A stretch of DNA of 64,000 nucleotides from an uncultured Ardenticatenia bacterium (GTDB taxonomy: Bacteria > Chloroflexota > Anaerolineae > 4572-78 > NAK82): positions 62,001 to 126,000 of the forward strand of contig CAKZLO010000002.1 in assembly GCA_937127125.1 (NCBI GenBank). The letters run 5' to 3'. Of this stretch, positions 51,471 through 61,918 are shown one piece after another. Position 1 is the first letter of the stretch, and each line of letters opens with the position of its first letter. The position numbers and the translations under genes were made by a program. The notes under the pieces are model-generated. The model did no database searches and was not told the origin of the DNA. It saw nothing but the letters and a program-made list of their open reading frames with translations.

Positions 51471-53654
51471 CTACTCTCTCCCAACCCCCACGCTGCCCAA
51501 GAGGATCTCCCCTGATCCTTCCGCCAACAGTGGCATCAGTGTGTCGGGTTCATAGACCACCAGGTGCACAGTATATTCGCCTGGGGATACCGGCGACAGC
51601 CAATAGTACTCATTCACGTGCTCAGGCGGCCAGAGACTGGTACCCTGATGCCAGTTGTGACGCAAGGTGCGATCCTTTTGGAGAACCAAGGCCTCATCCG
51701 CACCTCTCAAGCGAATGGAAACCTTGTAGTCTACCGACATCACCGCTTGCGGCATCCAGCGCAATGCCACGCCGACCCAACCCCTACCTGTTTCCAGATG
51801 CACAGCTTCTAAAGCAATCTGCCCACCAAACATAGCTTGCCGGGGCACATCAGGGACAGGTAGCTGAAAAATGGTCTGGTCAGATGGCAGCACCCAAGTC
51901 TCCACATGGTAGGCTGGTCGCATCCGGTTACCTACCAATTGAGCGGTTGTGCCTAATAGATAGGTGACAACCTCGCGTTCATCCGCAGCGATGTGTTTAT
52001 CCTGTGTCCAGCGCACGACACGGAATAGCTTGGCACCCTTTGCTGCCCGGGTCAACTGCGCGGCCACAGTATGTTCATCCACTGGTATGTAATAGTAAGG
52101 TGTCCGACCATGATACAGGAAATCCAGCGTGTAGTGACGTGCTTCATGGCCCGCGCGCAAATCCATCGGGATGATGTACACCACACCCGACTCGCCATCA
52201 GCAGCAATCTCTTCAGCCAGCTCCTCCGCATACACGTCGAAAGCCATATACAGCTGAGGCAACCGTGCCCACTGGACGAAGTACTGTTGCGCTGTCAACA
52301 AACCCACCGGCAAGAAAAGCGCTAACGGCACAATTAAACCAACAGTTGGTCGCCGGATGATCTCCTGCTCCAGCGCAGGCGCCTTCAAAACGAGCCTCCT
52401 TCCCAGACGTTGCCAGAGCGACAATGCCACCCCACCCACGATACGCAACAAGTACACACATCCTATTGCCACCAGCACATACGTAGCAGGTGCACTGCCG
52501 ATCAACCGCAGGTGGTGAGGTGCTCCCTCCGGTGCCAGAATAGCTGGCAATAACATCACCACCCACCAGCACAACAGAAACAGATCGAACAGCACTGAGA
52601 TACCAACACGACACGTCCCGGCTTCAGGAGTATCCCGTCGCACCGAACGCGCTACCCGCCAGAGGCACAGTGCCACGCCTAACCAGAAACATAATGCCAA
52701 TGGGGCACTCAACATCGGCTGCCCCGGCAGGTTTCCCAGTGGATTAGGGTCACCACCCAGCCCTGTAAAAGTGCTCAGCGTCACAATGGTTGTGCGCAGC
52801 AACGTACCCAGCAAATCGCCTTGGTTCCACGCTGGATTGAAAATGGAAACCGACACAGCACGCTCGGCAAACGCTTCCGGATGACGCAAGAAAAAGAGAG
52901 CTAACGGGGAGAACACCAGGCATGCCGCCAATCCCGTTGCCAACCATCCACGCCAGTAACGCACTGCCAACGGTTGTCTTCCTGCCCAAGCCGCCAGTGC
53001 AGCTTCCAAGGCCAGGAAGAGCCCAATACCCAGCGGTACAAACCGGCCCGCCAGATAGGTATAAGCGCCGAGGCCGATGAATCCACCAGCAGCGAAGAAG
53101 TGCAGCCAGGCACGCCGCTCGCTCTCCACCTCTGCAGCGCGCAATGCGCGCCATAACCAGGCAATCGCCAACGCTTCGACAGCTGGCATCGCCAACGCGC
53201 GGAAGCCGATGCGGCTGTAAGCCACATGCCAGAAGGCAGTCGCCAGACCCAAACCAGCCAGCAACGGAAGTGCGACATCGCCGGCAGAGAATCGTTGCTT
53301 ATCCGAAGAAGAAGCGACTACCCACTCACTTGCCAGCCACACAGTACCAGCTACTGCGAGCACACCCATACTTGCTGCATAAACGCGCAGTGCCAGACGG
53401 GTAGCGCCCAGCAACCAGAACAGCGGTTGCACCAAATAGGCCATCAACGGCTCCTTACCGCCACCGATGGGCCACCAAAGACGCAAAACACCATGTGTCA
53501 CGTCGAGCGCTGCGACACCTTCACCGCCCTCATCAAAATGCAGACCCGGTGGCAGCTGATCCAACCAGGGATAACGCAGAGCTGCCGCCACCAGCACAGC
53601 GATTGCTAGCGATAACCACCATAGAAGTCGGTAATTACGCCGTGGGTCAACCAT
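51471..53654 (-). CDS. GT39-type membrane glycosyltransferase with C-terminal beta domain
   Basis: 727 residues with 11 or more helices in the first 480. Catalytic pair D41-E42 in LHFDEGGEG. After the membrane part come a soluble region and a C-terminal beta-sandwich (about 590-727, VDYKVSIRLRG, SPGEYTVHLVVYEPDT). The start ATG at 53654 overlaps the stop of the pentapeptide gene by 8 bp, so it is translated by coupling; longer starts (53666 and further up) are possible. Role: adding a sugar from polyprenyl phosphate to a glycan or protein outside the membrane. Acceptor unknown. Confidence 0.8.
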   Translation of the reverse strand: MVDPRRNYRLLWWLSLAIAVLVAAALRYPWLDQLPPGLHFDEGGEGVAALDVTHGVLRLWWPIGGGKEPLMAYLVQPLFWLLGATRLALRVYAASMGVLAVAGTVWLASEWVVASSSDKQRFSAGDVALPLLAGLGLATAFWHVAYSRIGFRALAMPAVEALAIAWLWRALRAAEVESERRAWLHFFAAGGFIGLGAYTYLAGRFVPLGIGLFLALEAALAAWAGRQPLAVRYWRGWLATGLAACLVFSPLALFFLRHPEAFAERAVSVSIFNPAWNQGDLLGTLLRTTIVTLSTFTGLGGDPNPLGNLPGQPMLSAPLALCFWLGVALCLWRVARSVRRDTPEAGTCRVGISVLFDLFLLCWWVVMLLPAILAPEGAPHHLRLIGSAPATYVLVAIGCVYLLRIVGGVALSLWQRLGRRLVLKAPALEQEIIRRPTVGLIVPLALFLPVGLLTAQQYFVQWARLPQLYMAFDVYAEELAEEIAADGESGVVYIIPMDLRAGHEARHYTLDFLYHGRTPYYYIPVDEHTVAAQLTRAAKGAKLFRVVRWTQDKHIAADEREVVTYLLGTTAQLVGNRMRPAYHVETWVLPSDQTIFQLPVPDVPRQAMFGGQIALEAVHLETGRGWVGVALRWMPQAVMSVDYKVSIRLRGADEALVLQKDRTLRHNWHQGTSLWPPEHVNEYYWLSPVSPGEYTVHLVVYEPDTLMPLLAEGSGEILLGSVGVGRE

Positions 53655-54171
53655 GCACAGTGCCATCCGGCATACGCGCGCCCCCCAGCTTGGCCGCGCG
53701 CGTATCGGCCCGAATAGTGCTTGCACCCAAGAGGTCTGCCTGTGCCAAGTCAGCTCCGTACAGACAGCTTTCATCCAGTCGAGCACCAACCAGATCAGCT
53801 TGGACCAACTCGGCACCGCGCAGATCAGCGCGGTACAGGATGGCGTGCCGCAGACAAGCGCGACGCAAGATCGCATTACTTAGAATGGCACCGCTAAGAT
53901 CGCTCTGCGTCAGATCGGCACCAGTCAGGTCTGCTTCGGCAAGATTAGCACTGCTCAGACGTGTACTGTGGAGAACTGCACCGCGCAATACCGCCCCGCT
54001 TAGATTGACCAGGTGTAAATCGGCGCCGTGCAAGTTAGCCCCACTCAAATCAGCCCCATGCAGATCGAGTGCCTGGAGCTGGAGACCACTCAGGTCCAAG
54101 CCAGCCAGCCTGGGGTGCTCGCCAGCAGCAATCAGTGCCAAGACCAGCTCTTTGCGTGTGATCTCCGCCAT
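53647..54171 (-). CDS. Pentapeptide-repeat protein
   Basis: 174 residues. From about residue 22 on it is built of A(D/N)LxG-type repeats (LDLSGLQLQALDLHGADLSG, ANLHGADL, ADLTGADLTQ and so on), about 28 of them, forming a square beta helix. No signal peptide or membrane helix; N-terminal EITRKELVLALIAAGEHPRLA is helical. The function of such proteins is mostly structural or inhibitory (some bind DNA gyrase). It lies 3 nt after one GT39 gene and overlaps the next by 8 bp, which ties it to the operon. Confidence 0.88.
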   Translation of the reverse strand: MAEITRKELVLALIAAGEHPRLAGLDLSGLQLQALDLHGADLSGANLHGADLHLVNLSGAVLRGAVLHSTRLSSANLAEADLTGADLTQSDLSGAILSNAILRRACLRHAILYRADLRGAELVQADLVGARLDESCLYGADLAQADLLGASTIRADTRAAKLGGARMPDGTVHG

Positions 54172-54174
54172 AGC

Positions 54175-56211
54175 TCACCCCTCGTCAAATGGAAGATCAA
54201 CGGGTGCACCCAAGGGCGCGCCATTTGCTGCATCATAGATGACTATCTGTACGGATTGCACCGACCAGTCATTGCTCCGCACCAAAGTGTGTATATCACG
54301 CAAGTAATCCCCTGGTCGTAGCTGGCGGGTGGGTAACAACCCATTTGCGGGCCAGCTGTCGTGTTGCGCCAGCCAGCGACCATCCCCCCCCACAAGGCGT
54401 ACGCTTACCGTGTAATCCGTCGGCACAGTCACAGGCACATACCAACCCAAAGTCACCACAACCGAGTCACCTTGCACCTCCACTCGATAGCCAATCAGCT
54501 GCAAAGGGGAGTCCTTCCATGGTGTACTCCTCAGCATATGCAACCCATCCGGAGCGCTGGAGGTGATGAGCTTTGGCCCGCGATAGATCCAAGCATAGGG
54601 CACCCCAAGAATTTCGACCACGTAGTCTGGCCGCTGCGCACGAAAATGACGCACAATTTCAGGGCTGGGTGCCAGCCGCTGGACTTGCGACACATAAAGC
54701 ACCACCCAATCGGCCCGCAACGCCACATCGTTGGTGTAGAAATTCTCGCCGCGGCCCCGAAAGTATGGTAGCAGCGTCTGTGCTGGCACTGCTGCCACGT
54801 ACGCATTCGCCGCATTCGGCTGCGCGTTGAGATAAGAGGCCACCTGCTCCATCCCCTCTCCCCATCCCACCAACGTGGTCTCGACAGCACGCGATAAACC
54901 ACCCATCACTGGATTAAAGTACGCCAGATAGTAAGGATAGTGAGTGACGACTGGATAAGCGTGTAGCACCACCAGAATTGCCCACAAGCTGGCAACACTA
55001 TAACCTGCGAGGCGAGGCAAAAGCCTTGGTATTATGGCAATGCGCCCTATCAACCATATGAGCCCCCACGCTGCTAGCAGGTCGAGAAATGGGAACAGTG
55101 CCAGCAGATAGCGATCCTGTTTCTTGGGACTAAGTTGGGCAAAACACAACAGGCCGATCACAAACAGCCAGCAAAGAACAGCGATTCGCACACTTGCTCG
55201 CTCATGGTCCTCGTGTGCACCTCGCGTTCGACATAACCATCCCCATGCCAAAGCGACCATGCTGCCCAGCAGACCCAACCAAACCACTGGTGTGAGACGG
55301 AAAGCAATCACGTACGGGTAGAACCATGGTCCCGGATCCAGACTAGATTGCCCCATAAAGAAGACCAGATGGCCCGCTTCTACCTTGCCAAATGTCTCTT
55401 CAATCATACGTTGCAGCGTGCCCGGCGCATCCACCCACAGCGCCGGCCACAGCGCCACGAAAACTATGCCGGCCAGCGCGCCCCAGAGAAACAATTGGAG
55501 GATGCGCTTCCGAAAGATCGCCCGACCAGAGCGAGCGCCATACATAAATGCATCCGCCAGGCCCACCAAAAATACAAACACAGCGACAAAGGGTCCCGGT
55601 GACCTGGTTAGCGCCGCCAGCCCACCACACACCGCCGACAACACCAGCCATCTGCTCACGATGCGTTCACGCGCTAAAGAGTCGCGCAGGTGTACCAGGA
55701 ATGCCAACACCGCCAATCCTATGAACACGGCTACCGGCCCATCCACATGGACGACGCGCGTATGTGCCAGCACAAACGGATCCCAGGCCACCAACAAGGC
55801 ACCCATCAACGCTACACGCCAGCCCAGCAAACGCCTGCTCAGTGCATATACCCCGACCGCGCATAGCGCGCCCAGGACGGCATGGGCAAGCCGTGTGGCG
55901 CCCATCAACTCGAGAAAGGGTCGTTGTATAAATTGACTGAACGGTTCTCCCGCACCAGAGCCAAGCCATTGGAGCACCATTCCCAGCCCGGCCAGCCAAC
56001 TCATAGTAAGCCCAGGATAGAAATGCCAATAAGTGGAGCGAAAGTCTCCTTGCAGGAAAGCATTGACAACAGCGGCAGACCGCTGGATATTGAATGGTTC
56101 ATCTGTGGTGACAAACTGATCCAGTCCAGGCACTCGAGGCAGCAAGGCAGCTAGAAAGATGAGCAGGAGCAGCCACCACGCTCCACCCTTATGGCGCGTT
56201 CGCATCGTCAT
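54175..56211 (-). CDS. GT39-type membrane glycosyltransferase with C-terminal beta domain
   Basis: 678 residues. D37-E38 in TTDEPFNIQRS is the catalytic pair of the ArnT/PMT-type fold; eleven or more helices to about residue 430. A soluble part and a terminal beta-sandwich (about 560-678, VVVTLGWYVPVTVPTDYTVSVRL, RPGDYLRDIHTL) follow. The ATG overlaps the stop of the previous gene (ATGA), so the two are coupled. An in-frame ATG six bases downstream is another start. Confidence 0.8.
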   Translation of the reverse strand: MTMRTRHKGGAWWLLLLIFLAALLPRVPGLDQFVTTDEPFNIQRSAAVVNAFLQGDFRSTYWHFYPGLTMSWLAGLGMVLQWLGSGAGEPFSQFIQRPFLELMGATRLAHAVLGALCAVGVYALSRRLLGWRVALMGALLVAWDPFVLAHTRVVHVDGPVAVFIGLAVLAFLVHLRDSLARERIVSRWLVLSAVCGGLAALTRSPGPFVAVFVFLVGLADAFMYGARSGRAIFRKRILQLFLWGALAGIVFVALWPALWVDAPGTLQRMIEETFGKVEAGHLVFFMGQSSLDPGPWFYPYVIAFRLTPVVWLGLLGSMVALAWGWLCRTRGAHEDHERASVRIAVLCWLFVIGLLCFAQLSPKKQDRYLLALFPFLDLLAAWGLIWLIGRIAIIPRLLPRLAGYSVASLWAILVVLHAYPVVTHYPYYLAYFNPVMGGLSRAVETTLVGWGEGMEQVASYLNAQPNAANAYVAAVPAQTLLPYFRGRGENFYTNDVALRADWVVLYVSQVQRLAPSPEIVRHFRAQRPDYVVEILGVPYAWIYRGPKLITSSAPDGLHMLRSTPWKDSPLQLIGYRVEVQGDSVVVTLGWYVPVTVPTDYTVSVRLVGGDGRWLAQHDSWPANGLLPTRQLRPGDYLRDIHTLVRSNDWSVQSVQIVIYDAANGAPLGAPVDLPFDEG

Positions 56212-58280
56212 GGGGCACTCATCCTTGTGAGCAACACTGCATTCTCACCACTCGTGTCTCCACGAATCGGAACGCGCTCGCCCGTTTCAGCATCGTAAAG
56301 ACCAACCAACAGCCGATAGGTGCCCTGCGGCAATGGATCGGGTAAGTAAAGCAACACACCGTCACGCAGCCATTCCCGTTGTTCTATCAGGTCGCGCAAC
56401 ACCTCACCGCTGACCAGTCCCTCCAGCAAAAAGTGGTCCGCCTGAGCGATGATCGCATCTCGCTCGTCACGAAGTTGTACAAATACCTTAATAGGTCGAC
56501 TTACTTCGGCGATCAGGGGTCGCCAGTAGAGAACGAGCTGGATCGAGTTGTCTGGTGCCACCGCGCTGAAGTCAACAGCGTAACCGCCCAACTCGGCAAG
56601 ATCGTCAAAGCGAGCACGAAGCTCTGTCGTGGGATCGGCCGGTATAGGACGAGGATACCGATGACTAAGGAATACTGGCACACCACCACGATGGTATACA
56701 ATGTCCATCTGGGCAAAGACCTGCTGGGTAAACAGTGGATCATAGCGATGAAACAGGCGCTTGCGATCTACCACAAACCACAGCCGACCTTCTGACTCGG
56801 CCAACGCTCGGTTAAGCCCTTCCTCCGAGTCAACCAGCGTTGCACCTACATAACGATCCACTGTTTCATCGCTCTCCTCGTCGTACAACACGCGGGCCCG
56901 TTCCCCCGCTGCATAATAATCCACACGTCCCAGATATAGATATGCCGCTGAGGGATGCACCGTCATCAGGCGATCACCTTCCTGCCAATTCTCCCTCACC
57001 CAAGCAAACGCTGTGTTGTAATCACCAATGCCACGTGCTCCCAATCCCTGCCATGCATCTTGTCCCCACACAACCACAATGAGAATCACTGCCAAAAGTG
57101 TTCCAACACCCGAAAGCCAGCGTGGATACGCCCACGGCCATATCCTGGCCAGCAAGCCCAGTCGCGCCGCTCCATCGGCTGCCAGCAACACAAAAGCAGG
57201 TTGACAGAGGATGAAGAGGTATCGCGTCTTGCGCCACATCGAAGGGAACAGGAATCCCAAAGCAGCAATAGTGAATAAAAAAATGAAAACCAAGCACAAT
57301 GTAGCCAACCCACGAGGTGTAACTCGCTTTCGTACCACTGTTGCCAACGATATCAACCCGGCCACACCCACCAACACGGCCAGTGGAAGATAAACCTTAG
57401 ACGTGAAGTAGTAGACAAAGTCGTCCACCCGCTGCCAGCTGATCCCAGGGGATAGAATCTCGGCAACCAGCGCAGCCAAATCTACCGACTGAGTCCTGCA
57501 GGTTGCTTGTGTCGGGGTCAGGAAAGGTCCTTGGCCGATAACCCCAAACACCACCGCAGCTAACACCATTACTGCGATAGCTAACCAAGATATGCGGTCA
57601 CGCCACAAGTTACCAACCACGGTGGCAACACTCAACTGTTTCCTCTCAAGCAGAGTCGTGACCAAAATCGCCAGCGCCCATGCCGGCAAAGCGACAATGG
57701 CAACAGAATGAGACAGCGTTGCGCCCAGAAAGCAGGCAGCGGCAGCTAGCCAGAAGCTTGACCTGTGGCGACCTGTTACACCTCGAACCGCAAAATAGAG
57801 CGCCCACAGCGCGAACAGGGCGGCTGGCGCATACATGCGCACACGGCTGGACCAAAGGATCATCAACATATCCACCGCGGCAAATGCCATAGCAAACAGT
57901 CCAGCAGCACGTGAGGCAAACAGACGACGTGCCACCACATAATAGCTGGCCACTGTGAACATCCCCACCAAAAGCGAGGGCCAGCGCAACATCTCTTCCT
58001 GCACCCCATTGCTCAGCGCAGCAAAGGGCACAGCCAGATACGAAGAGAGCAGCCCTTGTGAGTACAGAATACCAGACGGAAGCACTGGCAGACCCTTGAG
58101 CGTTGTCATCTGCACAGCCAACATACTGATGTATTCGTCCACATGAAATATGCGCGCCACCACACGATCCATACGCAGCAGGAAAGCGACCAATAGCAAC
58201 ACCACGGCCACCCCAAGAGGCAAGTAACACGCAAGTCTTGAGGGCGAAGAGTGTGTTCTCAAATCCTCGCTCGATCTCAT
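56208..58280 (-). CDS. GT39-type membrane glycosyltransferase with C-terminal beta domain
   Basis: 690 residues. D48-E49 in FHVDEYISM forms the acid pair. The protein resembles the next upstream gene: both have LPVLPSG, a GLL-SYL-VP stretch, RxRMY, FAxVRxxWQEGD and the end xDTSGENAxLL, so they arose by tandem duplication. About 11 helices, then the soluble beta domain with YWRPLIAEVSRPIKVFVQL and GTYRLLVGLYDAETGERVP. ATG 58280 overlaps the previous stop as ATGA; a longer frame upstream is not likely. Confidence 0.8.
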   Translation of the reverse strand: MRSSEDLRTHSSPSRLACYLPLGVAVVLLLVAFLLRMDRVVARIFHVDEYISMLAVQMTTLKGLPVLPSGILYSQGLLSSYLAVPFAALSNGVQEEMLRWPSLLVGMFTVASYYVVARRLFASRAAGLFAMAFAAVDMLMILWSSRVRMYAPAALFALWALYFAVRGVTGRHRSSFWLAAAACFLGATLSHSVAIVALPAWALAILVTTLLERKQLSVATVVGNLWRDRISWLAIAVMVLAAVVFGVIGQGPFLTPTQATCRTQSVDLAALVAEILSPGISWQRVDDFVYYFTSKVYLPLAVLVGVAGLISLATVVRKRVTPRGLATLCLVFIFLFTIAALGFLFPSMWRKTRYLFILCQPAFVLLAADGAARLGLLARIWPWAYPRWLSGVGTLLAVILIVVVWGQDAWQGLGARGIGDYNTAFAWVRENWQEGDRLMTVHPSAAYLYLGRVDYYAAGERARVLYDEESDETVDRYVGATLVDSEEGLNRALAESEGRLWFVVDRKRLFHRYDPLFTQQVFAQMDIVYHRGGVPVFLSHRYPRPIPADPTTELRARFDDLAELGGYAVDFSAVAPDNSIQLVLYWRPLIAEVSRPIKVFVQLRDERDAIIAQADHFLLEGLVSGEVLRDLIEQREWLRDGVLLYLPDPLPQGTYRLLVGLYDAETGERVPIRGDTSGENAVLLTRMSAP

Positions 58281-60418
58281 CGGATCATAATGCTGCCCAA
58301 AAGGAGAGCATTCTCCCCAGAAGTATCGTTTTGCAACGGCAGTCGTTCCATGGTGTCCAGCCGATACATGCCTACCCAAACAGTGTATTCTCCTGTTGGC
58401 AGCTCCGCTGGTAGCATCACCACATGAGGATCGATCACCACCTCGCCTGGCCGCCAGCGACTGGTAGGATAATCACCGTCTAACGGCTGCCCATCCTGCT
58501 GCGCTATCGTTGCTCCCGTCGCGTCGCGCAGATGCACAAAAACAGTGTAGTCCACCCTCTGGACGACATCCGCACGCCAGAACAACGTCAAAGCGTACTG
58601 GCCGCCTGGTACAAGCTGTGTCCCGTCCTCATCGCTATATCCCAATAAGTGAAGCGCGTCGCCCAACACTGCATCCACTGTCACCGTTGGTGCTGTTGAC
58701 AACGGAGAACGATCAGCTCGGGTCACGAACACCAGTGCCTCATCCTCCGACCATACCAGCTTCATCTGTGTCTTCAGCACAGCCAGCCAGTCGCTCCGAT
58801 AGTAGACGGGCAGACGAATAGTATCTGTCACGAACCAGGCGCGCGGATAGGTATTTAGCACTCGCATCAGTTCGTCTGCCGAACCCAGCCAGGGCATCCC
58901 CATCCACCGGTCCACCCATTGCATCGAGCCATATTGATCCTTCCCATAGGAAGCAGAGCGCAAAAGAAATTGCTCAGCATCTTCCTGCACTGCGAAGAAT
59001 TGTACACGTCCCACCAGGAGCGCGGCACCAGGTGTGTTCATTGTCAGCAGCGCATCACCCTCCTGCCACTCGTCGCGAACATAGGCAAATGCCCGTTCAT
59101 AAGCCGGTTCAGGTGTACGAAAAGCGACCTCCATATCAAGCCACAATCCATGCATCTGAAGCAGCACTAACACCACCGCCATCAACCAGCCACACACATG
59201 CAGCAACCGGGATCCCACGCTACGCCCATGTTGGTCGCCCCGGAGACGTAGTAGCAGCTCCCAACCCACTGCCGCCAGCAGGTAGAACCATGGCAGTATC
59301 ATAATCAGGTAACGCGGATTACGCCGCCATGGCTCGAGCAATGTTATCATCTCCCCGACAGGGCCTGAGCTGATCACCCATAAGTAGAGAGCCTGACAGC
59401 AGCTTCCTTGATGCTGCACATCCAGCTTGCGACGCCGCAGCCAGAGAACCAACATCGCCACGCCCCCCCACACGGCTACAATGCTCAGCCAAATGTGATA
59501 GGACACACCGAACTCGCGTGCCAGAAATTTCACAGCGCTGCCGATGTCGAGAACTAACCCGGCTTGATAGGTGATCGTATTAAGCAACTCACGCGTCAGA
59601 TCTGCAGCTTCTATATCACCCAATGGAGCGGCACCAAGTGGCTGACCCAGACGCTTCACCAGTACTGCCAATACCAACACCACACCAAGGACAAACACTT
59701 CTGCCAGCACACTGAACCGTAGAAACCAAGGGCGCACATCGGCAGGACGTGTCAGCCAACCTACCAAAACGGCTGCGACGAGCAATGGTGGCACCAGGAC
59801 AAGGGCGCCAAAGTGAGTTAACAGCAGCGCCATCAGGATGAGGAGTGCAAGCCAGCGCAAGCGTCTGTTCCCCGCACCATAGCTGCCCCAATACACTAAG
59901 AGTGCCAATCCCATAGCCAGGAGTTGAGCCAGGCCATACATTCGTGCGCGTCCACCCCACACCACCGCCTGAGGAGCAAGCGCCAGCAAAGCAGCAGCAA
60001 CTAAACCCACACGTGCACCGAACCATCTCTTCCCCGCGCGATAGACAAGCCACACCGCTGCCACACTGACCAGCACGCTGGGCCAGCGAGCCATCAAGAA
60101 GAGCACCTCGGTACTAGCAGCTTGGCCCAGCCAATTTGCCAGGCTTACCCAGGGTACATCCAGATAGCTGAACAGCAACCCGTGCTCGTAAAACAACCCC
60201 GATGGCAACACTGGGAGACCGCTTTGCAGGATCGCCTGCACCGCCAGGACAGTGACATATTCATCGAAAAACGGGTGGCTACGCCAGGCATAAGCAAGGC
60301 GCAACACCAACGCAACCAGCAAGATGCCTGATAGCCACAGAGCGCTGTTGCCTGCAATCCAGCGCTTGATAGCAAACCTCTCTAAAGGGTGTGTCTTTTC
60401 AAACTGGGGATCATGCAT
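58277..60418 (-). CDS. GT39-type membrane glycosyltransferase with C-terminal beta domain
   Basis: 713 residues. D52-E53 in PFFDEYVTVLAV is the catalytic pair. About 11 helices between residues 28 and 450, then a soluble region ending in the shared beta-sandwich (DYTVFVHLRDATGATIAQQDG, TGEYTVWVGMYRLDTMERLP). It is a paralogue of the downstream gene. ATG 60418 (MHDPQFEKTH) is preferred over GTG 60430 for lack of a ribosome site at the latter. It lies 69 bp after the GT4 gene. Confidence 0.82.
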   Translation of the reverse strand: MHDPQFEKTHPLERFAIKRWIAGNSALWLSGILLVALVLRLAYAWRSHPFFDEYVTVLAVQAILQSGLPVLPSGLFYEHGLLFSYLDVPWVSLANWLGQAASTEVLFLMARWPSVLVSVAAVWLVYRAGKRWFGARVGLVAAALLALAPQAVVWGGRARMYGLAQLLAMGLALLVYWGSYGAGNRRLRWLALLILMALLLTHFGALVLVPPLLVAAVLVGWLTRPADVRPWFLRFSVLAEVFVLGVVLVLAVLVKRLGQPLGAAPLGDIEAADLTRELLNTITYQAGLVLDIGSAVKFLAREFGVSYHIWLSIVAVWGGVAMLVLWLRRRKLDVQHQGSCCQALYLWVISSGPVGEMITLLEPWRRNPRYLIMILPWFYLLAAVGWELLLRLRGDQHGRSVGSRLLHVCGWLMAVVLVLLQMHGLWLDMEVAFRTPEPAYERAFAYVRDEWQEGDALLTMNTPGAALLVGRVQFFAVQEDAEQFLLRSASYGKDQYGSMQWVDRWMGMPWLGSADELMRVLNTYPRAWFVTDTIRLPVYYRSDWLAVLKTQMKLVWSEDEALVFVTRADRSPLSTAPTVTVDAVLGDALHLLGYSDEDGTQLVPGGQYALTLFWRADVVQRVDYTVFVHLRDATGATIAQQDGQPLDGDYPTSRWRPGEVVIDPHVVMLPAELPTGEYTVWVGMYRLDTMERLPLQNDTSGENALLLGSIMIR

Positions 60419-60487
60419 CAACGAGCTCACAAAAACGGCGATTCTGACCTGCCAGCCGGCACACGCCGAATAATGTAAATCATCCGG

Positions 60488-61918
60488 CTAATGTGCCGCG
60501 TTTCTCCCGCTTCGCTCCAACACTCGGCGGTAGACTTCCACGTACTGAGCTGCAATGTACTCCCAGGCAAACTGTCTTTCCGCCATAAGACGGCTCTGAC
60601 GTCCCATGCGGCGCCGCTCATAACCGTTGTCGACCAGCAAAGCCAGAGCATCAGCTAGCGCGCCAGGATCTCTGGGTGGCACCAGATAACCGTTCACCGT
60701 GTCGTGTACCAGCTCCTGCAATCCGGGCACCTGTGTGCCGACGATGGGCAACCCGCATGCCATTGCTTCCAGAACTGTGTTCGGCATTCCCTCCCAAGTA
60801 GTCGCTGTGACAAAAATATCAGCCCTTCGATAGTAATCCGCAATTTGATCACGCGGCACCCAATCTGTAAAACGAACGCGCCGTGTCAGCCCCCGTTCGG
60901 CGACCAGGTGCTCCAGGCGAGGACGTGTTTCCCCTTCCCCCACCAGCTCCAGCTCAAAGTCACCCACTTCGCGTCGAGAGAGAAGATACACGGCTTCGAT
61001 CAGCGTTTCCACATTCTTGGCAGCAGTGAAGCGACCCACATACAATAGCTGCACTGGCCCTTGTGTATCGCGCTGGCGCGGCGGGGTGAACTGGCTCAAA
61101 TCGATGGCATTCGGTATCACCTGAATGGGGATGTCGGGTGCAACTTTCTCCGCATGACTACGCAACCCATTGCTGACAGCAACCAAAGCATCAGCGTCGC
61201 GCCACAGATATGTGATGAATGGGCGGAGCAATTTGTAGTGTCGGGCGAAACGCTTTACTTCATCCGAGGGCACATCGGCTCCGCGTAACGAGACCACATA
61301 AGGCAACCGATAAAGCCGTTTGAGCAACCACCCCAGTGGGCCATCTGGCACGCCAAAAAACACATGCACGATGTCAGGTCGAAACTCTCGCACATTGAAC
61401 AAACAGTACCAGGCTGCGCTTAGCAGAAAGGAGGCCATTTCAAAGGTGGAACAATAGTCCTGGCGCTGGCGAAACACAGGTACGCGATGCACCTCCACCC
61501 CATGGATGAACTCAACACGCTTTAGCCCACGGATGGGCATAATAAGTTCCCAAACCAGCCCCATAGTGTGCAAAATGAAGCCAGACAACAGCAACAACGT
61601 TCCCAAAATGGTGAACCCATGGTCGCTGATGTCCTCTCCCCAGCTAAGCTTGGCATACGTGAGATACACCCAGAAACCAAAACCCATAAAAAGGCTGACG
61701 GAACCCATCAGCGAGTAGAGTTGGGAAGGGCGCGAGGTAACTACACGCACGGTGTGCCCCATCTCGACCAGACATTCGGCAATCTTCTGAGATGCCTGTC
61801 CTCCGCCCGCGCCAATGGGTGGAAATTCGTAGTTAATAATCAGGATACGCATCGCCTCGTCAGAAGGTGTGAAGAATTTCGAACTCGCGCCGGTTTGTAC
61901 GTGCTCTGCAGCTGACAT
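60488..61918 (-). CDS. GT4 family (GT-B) glycosyltransferase with an inserted transmembrane hairpin
   Basis: 476 residues. The N-terminal Rossmann domain has YEFPPIGAGGGQASQKIAECL (30-50), which binds the acceptor; the donor domain has LLYVGRFTAAKNVETLIEA, and the catalytic/nucleotide loop WEGMPNTVLEAMACGLPIV with the EX7E pattern. Between VRVVTSRPS (58-65) and the GVEVHRVPVF strand (140-149), about 70 residues are inserted, including two hydrophobic segments (about 70-88 and 103-125). The cytosolic enzyme is therefore anchored inside its fold. It is the first gene of the GT operon. The start ATG 61918 is only 8 bp after a TATAAT, so translation may be leaderless; ATG 61852 is an alternative. 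Confidence 0.88.
   Translation of the reverse strand: MSAAEHVQTGASSKFFTPSDEAMRILIINYEFPPIGAGGGQASQKIAECLVEMGHTVRVVTSRPSQLYSLMGSVSLFMGFGFWVYLTYAKLSWGEDISDHGFTILGTLLLLSGFILHTMGLVWELIMPIRGLKRVEFIHGVEVHRVPVFRQRQDYCSTFEMASFLLSAAWYCLFNVREFRPDIVHVFFGVPDGPLGWLLKRLYRLPYVVSLRGADVPSDEVKRFARHYKLLRPFITYLWRDADALVAVSNGLRSHAEKVAPDIPIQVIPNAIDLSQFTPPRQRDTQGPVQLLYVGRFTAAKNVETLIEAVYLLSRREVGDFELELVGEGETRPRLEHLVAERGLTRRVRFTDWVPRDQIADYYRRADIFVTATTWEGMPNTVLEAMACGLPIVGTQVPGLQELVHDTVNGYLVPPRDPGALADALALLVDNGYERRRMGRQSRLMAERQFAWEYIAAQYVEVYRRVLERSGRNAAH

Follow-up and report, generated by a model that had tools for sequence, protein, structure and literature searches.

A GT4 glycosyltransferase from one order of Chloroflexota with an internal hairpin homologous in sequence to the transmembrane stalk of ArnC/GtrB-type GT2 enzymes

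The window analysed here, a stretch of 64,000 nucleotides from an uncultured Ardenticatenia bacterium (Chloroflexota), encodes a GT4 glycosyltransferase whose acceptor domain is interrupted by 66 residues. Profile comparison relates this insert by descent to the transmembrane stalk found at the C-terminus of GT2 polyprenyl-phosphate glycosyltransferases of the ArnC/GtrB type. A first-pass annotation of the DNA, which did not give the strand, had described about 70 inserted residues forming a transmembrane hairpin; the gene lies on the minus strand, the insert runs from R63 to P128, and its GT2 origin had gone unseen until the present analysis. The features of the gene are as follows.

60488..61918, minus strand: GT4 glycosyltransferase open reading frame, 476 aa, with the conserved part from M23 (61852)
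61535..61732, minus strand: insert of 66 residues (R63-P128), with homology to the transmembrane stalk of GT2 enzymes (ArnC/GtrB) according to the gap in insert-less GT4s, hhalign, shuffles and reciprocal searches
61640..61720, minus strand: predicted helix 1 of the hairpin, aa 67-93 (AlphaFold2 model, membrane score)
61541..61621, minus strand: predicted helix 2 of the hairpin, aa 100-126 (AlphaFold2 model, membrane score)
60767..60793, minus strand: EX7E motif EGMPNTVLE, aa 376-384, invariant in 16 orthologues

Pfam detected both a Glycos_transf_1 donor domain (1.6e-41) and a GT4-type N-terminal domain (Glyco_trans_4_4, 7.7e-19) in the open reading frame, well above the cut-off; a Glycos_transf_2 (GT-A) catalytic domain was absent. 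M23 is the start of the orthologues, and the first 22 residues of the frame are unconserved. The donor-phosphate residues R296 and K301 are invariant in the alignment of 16 orthologues, as are E376 and E384 of the EX7E motif, which had been annotated as intact and proved to be so. The AlphaFold2 model (pLDDT 81.7) has two 27-residue helices between strand β2 and the next strands, and Foldseek searches with this model retrieved GT4 enzymes of the GT-B fold (MshA, BshA and PimA). Sequence and model identify the protein as a predicted GT4 glycosyltransferase of the GT-B fold.

The insert follows strand β2 of the N-terminal (acceptor) domain and lies between VVTS and the GT4-native segment IRGLK..GVEVHRVPV. 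The closest insert-less GT4s, which belong to other families of Anaerolineae and, in the case of L098 in G200, to a genome within the same order in which the insert-bearing gene is present as well, show a single large gap of 65 residues exactly at the hairpin, TS-[RP...WELxxP]-IRGLK, and are otherwise aligned through the acceptor domain. Two helices had been placed at about 70-88 and 103-125; both are present in the model, with limits of 67-93 and 100-126. Mean column identity of the insert was 80% in the 16 orthologues, compared to 75-93% for the other parts of the protein, and the insert is thus roughly as conserved as the enzyme itself. In each of the 16 orthologues, no other stretch of the protein is as membrane-like as these two helices; this and the conservation argue that the insert did not arise by chance.

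The search for homologues with the same insertion, proposed in the first-pass annotation, was run with the insert profile over samples drawn at class, phylum and order level, which together comprise 663 different genomes. Of the 25 genomes that represent the window's order, 19 have an insert-bearing GT4, and the genomes sampled outside the order yielded none. Among the six order genomes counted as lacking the gene, three are from one genus (g5), one (G278) has a C-terminal piece of it at a contig, and the assemblies of the other two, G662 and G080, are incomplete (63% and 87%). When 84,980 species genomes were searched by a pattern, an approach that detects close relatives only, 20 loci were obtained, all in Chloroflexota. 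An assembly error as the source of the insert was rejected, because the insert recurs in 19 genomes. In the single-contig assembly CP070811.1 the GT4 is present as N- and C-terminal pieces (L019 and L020, at ~999 kb and ~1666 kb) that are ~670 kb apart and both run into a stretch of N; this is probably scaffolding and not a split gene.

The first link to GT2 enzymes came from BLASTP within the fetched loci, where the insert matched the C-terminus of a GT2 in locus L016. Alignment of 16 inserts with 24 GT2 C-termini by hhalign gave a probability of 97.7% and an E-value of 1.8e-12 over 66 columns without a gap; the score was 66.1, compared to a maximum of 24.8 in 600 column shuffles and 14 for the reversed alignment. 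In HMM searches performed in both directions over 2404 open reading frames, full-hairpin matches between GT4 inserts and GT2s scored more than 10 bits over the best unrelated frame. Across the 663 genomes, all 45 distinct hairpins that matched the insert profile besides the GT4s, and for which the DNA was read, were GT2 C-termini; about 15 more listed matches outside these 45 (e.g. in G018, G092, G244, G123 and G520) are in open frames of 313-441 aa, the size of a GT2. The nearest solved structures of the matched GT2 family are ArnC and GtrB. Fifteen positions are conserved at a level of at least 75% in both GT4 inserts and GT2 stalks; the positions shared by the two families are an RP pair at the entry, glycines at a spacing of seven within each helix, Tyr-Leu and Lys ending helix 1, and Glu-Leu ending helix 2, and they look structural. 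In a tree of the hairpins (66 columns) all inserts formed one clade with a support of 100/100, and the sequences indicate a single gain of the stalk, in the ancestor of one Chloroflexota order. The GT2s of this order were not specifically nearest to the inserts, and the tree singled out neither a donor GT2 lineage nor a copy from the neighbouring gene.

In GtrB, the two transmembrane helices assemble into a tetrameric stalk, a role in guiding the polyprenyl phosphate is proposed for two amphipathic juxtamembrane helices together with basic residues, and R122, R125, K132, A136, Y140, R200, L212, A216 and R290 are reported as essential (PMC4728340). The borrowed segment maps to about residues 226-290 of GtrB in the alignment, using a numbering offset of 23 that was fixed by the F215A difference between 5eke and 5ekp. 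Eight of the nine essential residues precede the segment and R290 is opposite an invariant proline of the insert; by this mapping, neither the juxtamembrane helices nor the essential residues are contained in the insert. The mapping therefore indicates, at the level of the alignment, that only the stalk was transplanted and not the proposed lipid-phosphate path. Since the lipid-handling residues of GtrB are missing, the homology does not imply a polyprenyl-linked acceptor.

Membrane propensity was scored by a simplified position-weighted sum with a published residue scale, of which only relative values are used; on this basis the insert helices fall in or near the range of the GT2 transmembrane helices and clear of every window of the insert-less GT4s. 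Their hydrophobicity is moderate, and helix 2 has an arginine in most orthologues. The turn of the hairpin is acidic and the outer flanks are basic, the pattern expected when both ends are in the cytosol. The helix limits in the GT4 model match those in a model of the GT2 stalk, which is a rough check only as the latter is weak (pLDDT 54.9). That the insert folds into a membrane hairpin whose two ends are cytosolic, and so anchors the enzyme internally in its acceptor domain as first annotated, is well supported by the homology to a solved hairpin, the hydrophobicity, the predicted helices of transmembrane length in the GT-B model, and the distribution of charges. A soluble helical pair, the outcome that would have spoken against this annotation, is disfavoured. 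The hairpin most likely serves as an anchor that keeps the acceptor cleft at the membrane.

Downstream of the GT4 gene are genes for membrane proteins that resemble GT39 enzymes.

58277..60430, minus strand: GT39-like membrane protein 1, PMT_2 (Pfam)
56208..58379, minus strand: GT39-like membrane protein 2, PMT_2 (Pfam)
54175..56211, minus strand: GT39-like membrane protein 3, PMT_2 and PMT (Pfam)
51471..53876, minus strand: GT39-like membrane protein 4 (limits of the listed open frame), grouping with the PMT_2 proteins of loci L003-L006 and L014

The operon had been described as containing four GT39 enzymes, and three of the downstream genes indeed match PMT_2. The fourth protein gave no Pfam match and is assigned through its clustering with PMT_2 proteins of sister loci; the true start of its gene is probably near 53600. 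A GT39-like membrane protein is encoded downstream of the GT4 in 12 of the 13 loci with readable downstream DNA, in one of them after a small gene; the exception is L011. One open frame adjoining the GT4 of that locus (L011:4381-5391) combines RNase H and GNAT acetyltransferase domains. Upstream of the GT4 in L016 and L019 is a GT39-like gene and beyond it an ArnC/GtrB-type GT2, which in L016 is preceded by an LPG_synthase_TM protein; in the window's genome the GT2 is on another contig, beside membrane proteins of similar look. On the outer face of the membrane, GT39 enzymes draw on polyprenyl-phosphate sugars as donors. A division of labour can be envisaged in which the GT2 would supply such donors, with the GT4 working on the cytosolic side. 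A pentapeptide-repeat protein of 174 aa (53647-54171, minus strand) is encoded between the third and fourth GT39-like genes. The three PMT_2 proteins (54175-60430, minus strand) have a similar, soluble-looking C-terminal region of ~100 residues beyond the membrane part, with motifs such as YxVxVxLRD...LPxGxYxVxVGxY and no Pfam match.

Overall, we consider it probable that the once-acquired GT2-type stalk after β2 anchors the acceptor cleft of this GT4 at the membrane, where the enzyme acts on a membrane-bound acceptor. A GT4 in the ancestor of the order would have gained an ArnC/GtrB-type two-helix stalk at this point. Strand β2 terminates at the side of the Rossmann sheet that faces the cleft, so that the hairpin would keep this acceptor cleft close to the membrane on its cytoplasmic face. 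There, the GT4 may add a sugar to a membrane-bound acceptor, probably polyprenyl-linked, and the GT39-like enzymes of the operon may contribute to this pathway from the outer face. In this view the stalk would provide anchoring, and perhaps oligomer contacts, rather than a binding site for polyprenyl phosphate. The earlier proposal of an acceptor site brought by the hairpin to polyprenyl-linked acceptors is hypothetical: the hairpin does derive from a family of polyprenyl-phosphate enzymes, but the stalk was transferred without the essential GtrB residues. A lipid-linked acceptor is a plausible hypothesis.

The likeness to the GT2 stalk could in principle be convergent, the insert being a generic membrane anchor of similar hydrophobic composition. 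Chance alignments are common for short hydrophobic segments, and searching directly with the insert produced no significant match: among PDB sequences, ArnC came up below significance alongside spurious myoglobins, and Pfam gave no match, for which reason the link was made via the Chloroflexota GT2s and tested by shuffles and reciprocal searches. However, shuffles that preserved the hydrophobic/polar pattern (half of the 600) reached at most 23.7 against 66.1, no other transmembrane protein matched among the 2404 frames or in the searched genomes, and non-hydrophobic positions (RP at the entry, Tyr, Lys and Glu) are common to both families too, which makes convergence very unlikely. We regard it as just as improbable that the helices do not cross the membrane. 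Such a reading would fit their moderate hydrophobicity and the hydrophobic segment of human Alg2, a related kind of enzyme, which binds without crossing (PMC8827073), but it is at odds with the homology to a solved transmembrane stalk, with membrane scores that overlap those of GT2 transmembrane helices and are apart from all insert-less GT4 windows, and with the acidic turn and basic cytosolic flanks.

Alternatively, the stalk might serve mainly for assembly, of a GT4 oligomer or by docking to GT2 or GT39-like enzymes of the pathway, with acceptor delivery being secondary. The tetrameric stalk of GtrB (PMC4728340), the glycines seven apart retained in both families, the conservation of the insert at about the level of the enzyme and the GT2 and GT39-like genes nearby are in line with this, but the C-terminal β-hairpin and juxtamembrane helices of GtrB, which also hold the tetramer, are not in the insert; a primary role in assembly is rather unlikely. 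Less likely still is a mixed membrane bundle made up of GT4 and GT2 subunits, in which two unrelated folds would be docked via one homologous transmembrane module to form a single carrier-lipid assembly line.

The best PDB matches of the GT4 in sequence and fold, BshA, MshA, PimA/PimB' and PglA, have the fold, EX7E motif and donor domain in common with it; to our knowledge, none has a transmembrane hairpin after β2, and membrane binding of the PDB members is peripheral or absent. ArnC and GtrB resemble the enzyme in the two-helix stalk (66 aligned columns, with the RP, Gly, Lys and Glu positions), but their catalytic domain is GT-A and the stalk is C-terminal, whereas the insert-bearing GT4 is GT-B and does not have the juxtamembrane helices and essential residues. 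Transmembrane helices inside a catalytic domain are already known. PGAP4, the GPI-GalNAc transferase, has tandem transmembrane helices in its catalytic domain and a membrane glycolipid as acceptor (PMC5785973), but is eukaryotic, of GT-A fold, and has an extra N-terminal transmembrane segment. Yeast Alg2, a dolichol-pathway mannosyltransferase with a polyprenyl-PP-linked acceptor, is held by internal hydrophobic domains, of which two cross the membrane, and human Alg2 performs its task with one non-crossing segment (PMC8827073); the hydrophobic segments of yeast Alg2 are other ones than those of the GT4.

What is new is the transplantation of a stalk between glycosyltransferase folds: in the literature we found no description of a GT4 with an inserted hairpin, nor of a glycosyltransferase stalk transplanted from another glycosyltransferase fold. 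The enzyme would be a clear natural case of a membrane stalk that has moved as a unit between unrelated folds (GT-A to GT-B), and it suggests a way of anchoring soluble GT4 enzymes at membranes. With the stalk transferred but the juxtamembrane part that handles the lipid left behind, the enzyme would also separate anchoring from polyprenyl-phosphate recognition, a division proposed in the GtrB structure paper and left there for further study (PMC4728340). The insert further marks a conserved, uncharacterised glycan operon of uncultured Chloroflexota.

The predicted periplasmic turn of the hairpin, D-x-SDHGFT (61610-61633, minus strand; insert columns 38-45) is nearly invariant among the GT4 inserts and better conserved than helix 1. 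For a simple anchor such conservation would be unnecessary, so the turn may have a partner or ligand outside the membrane.
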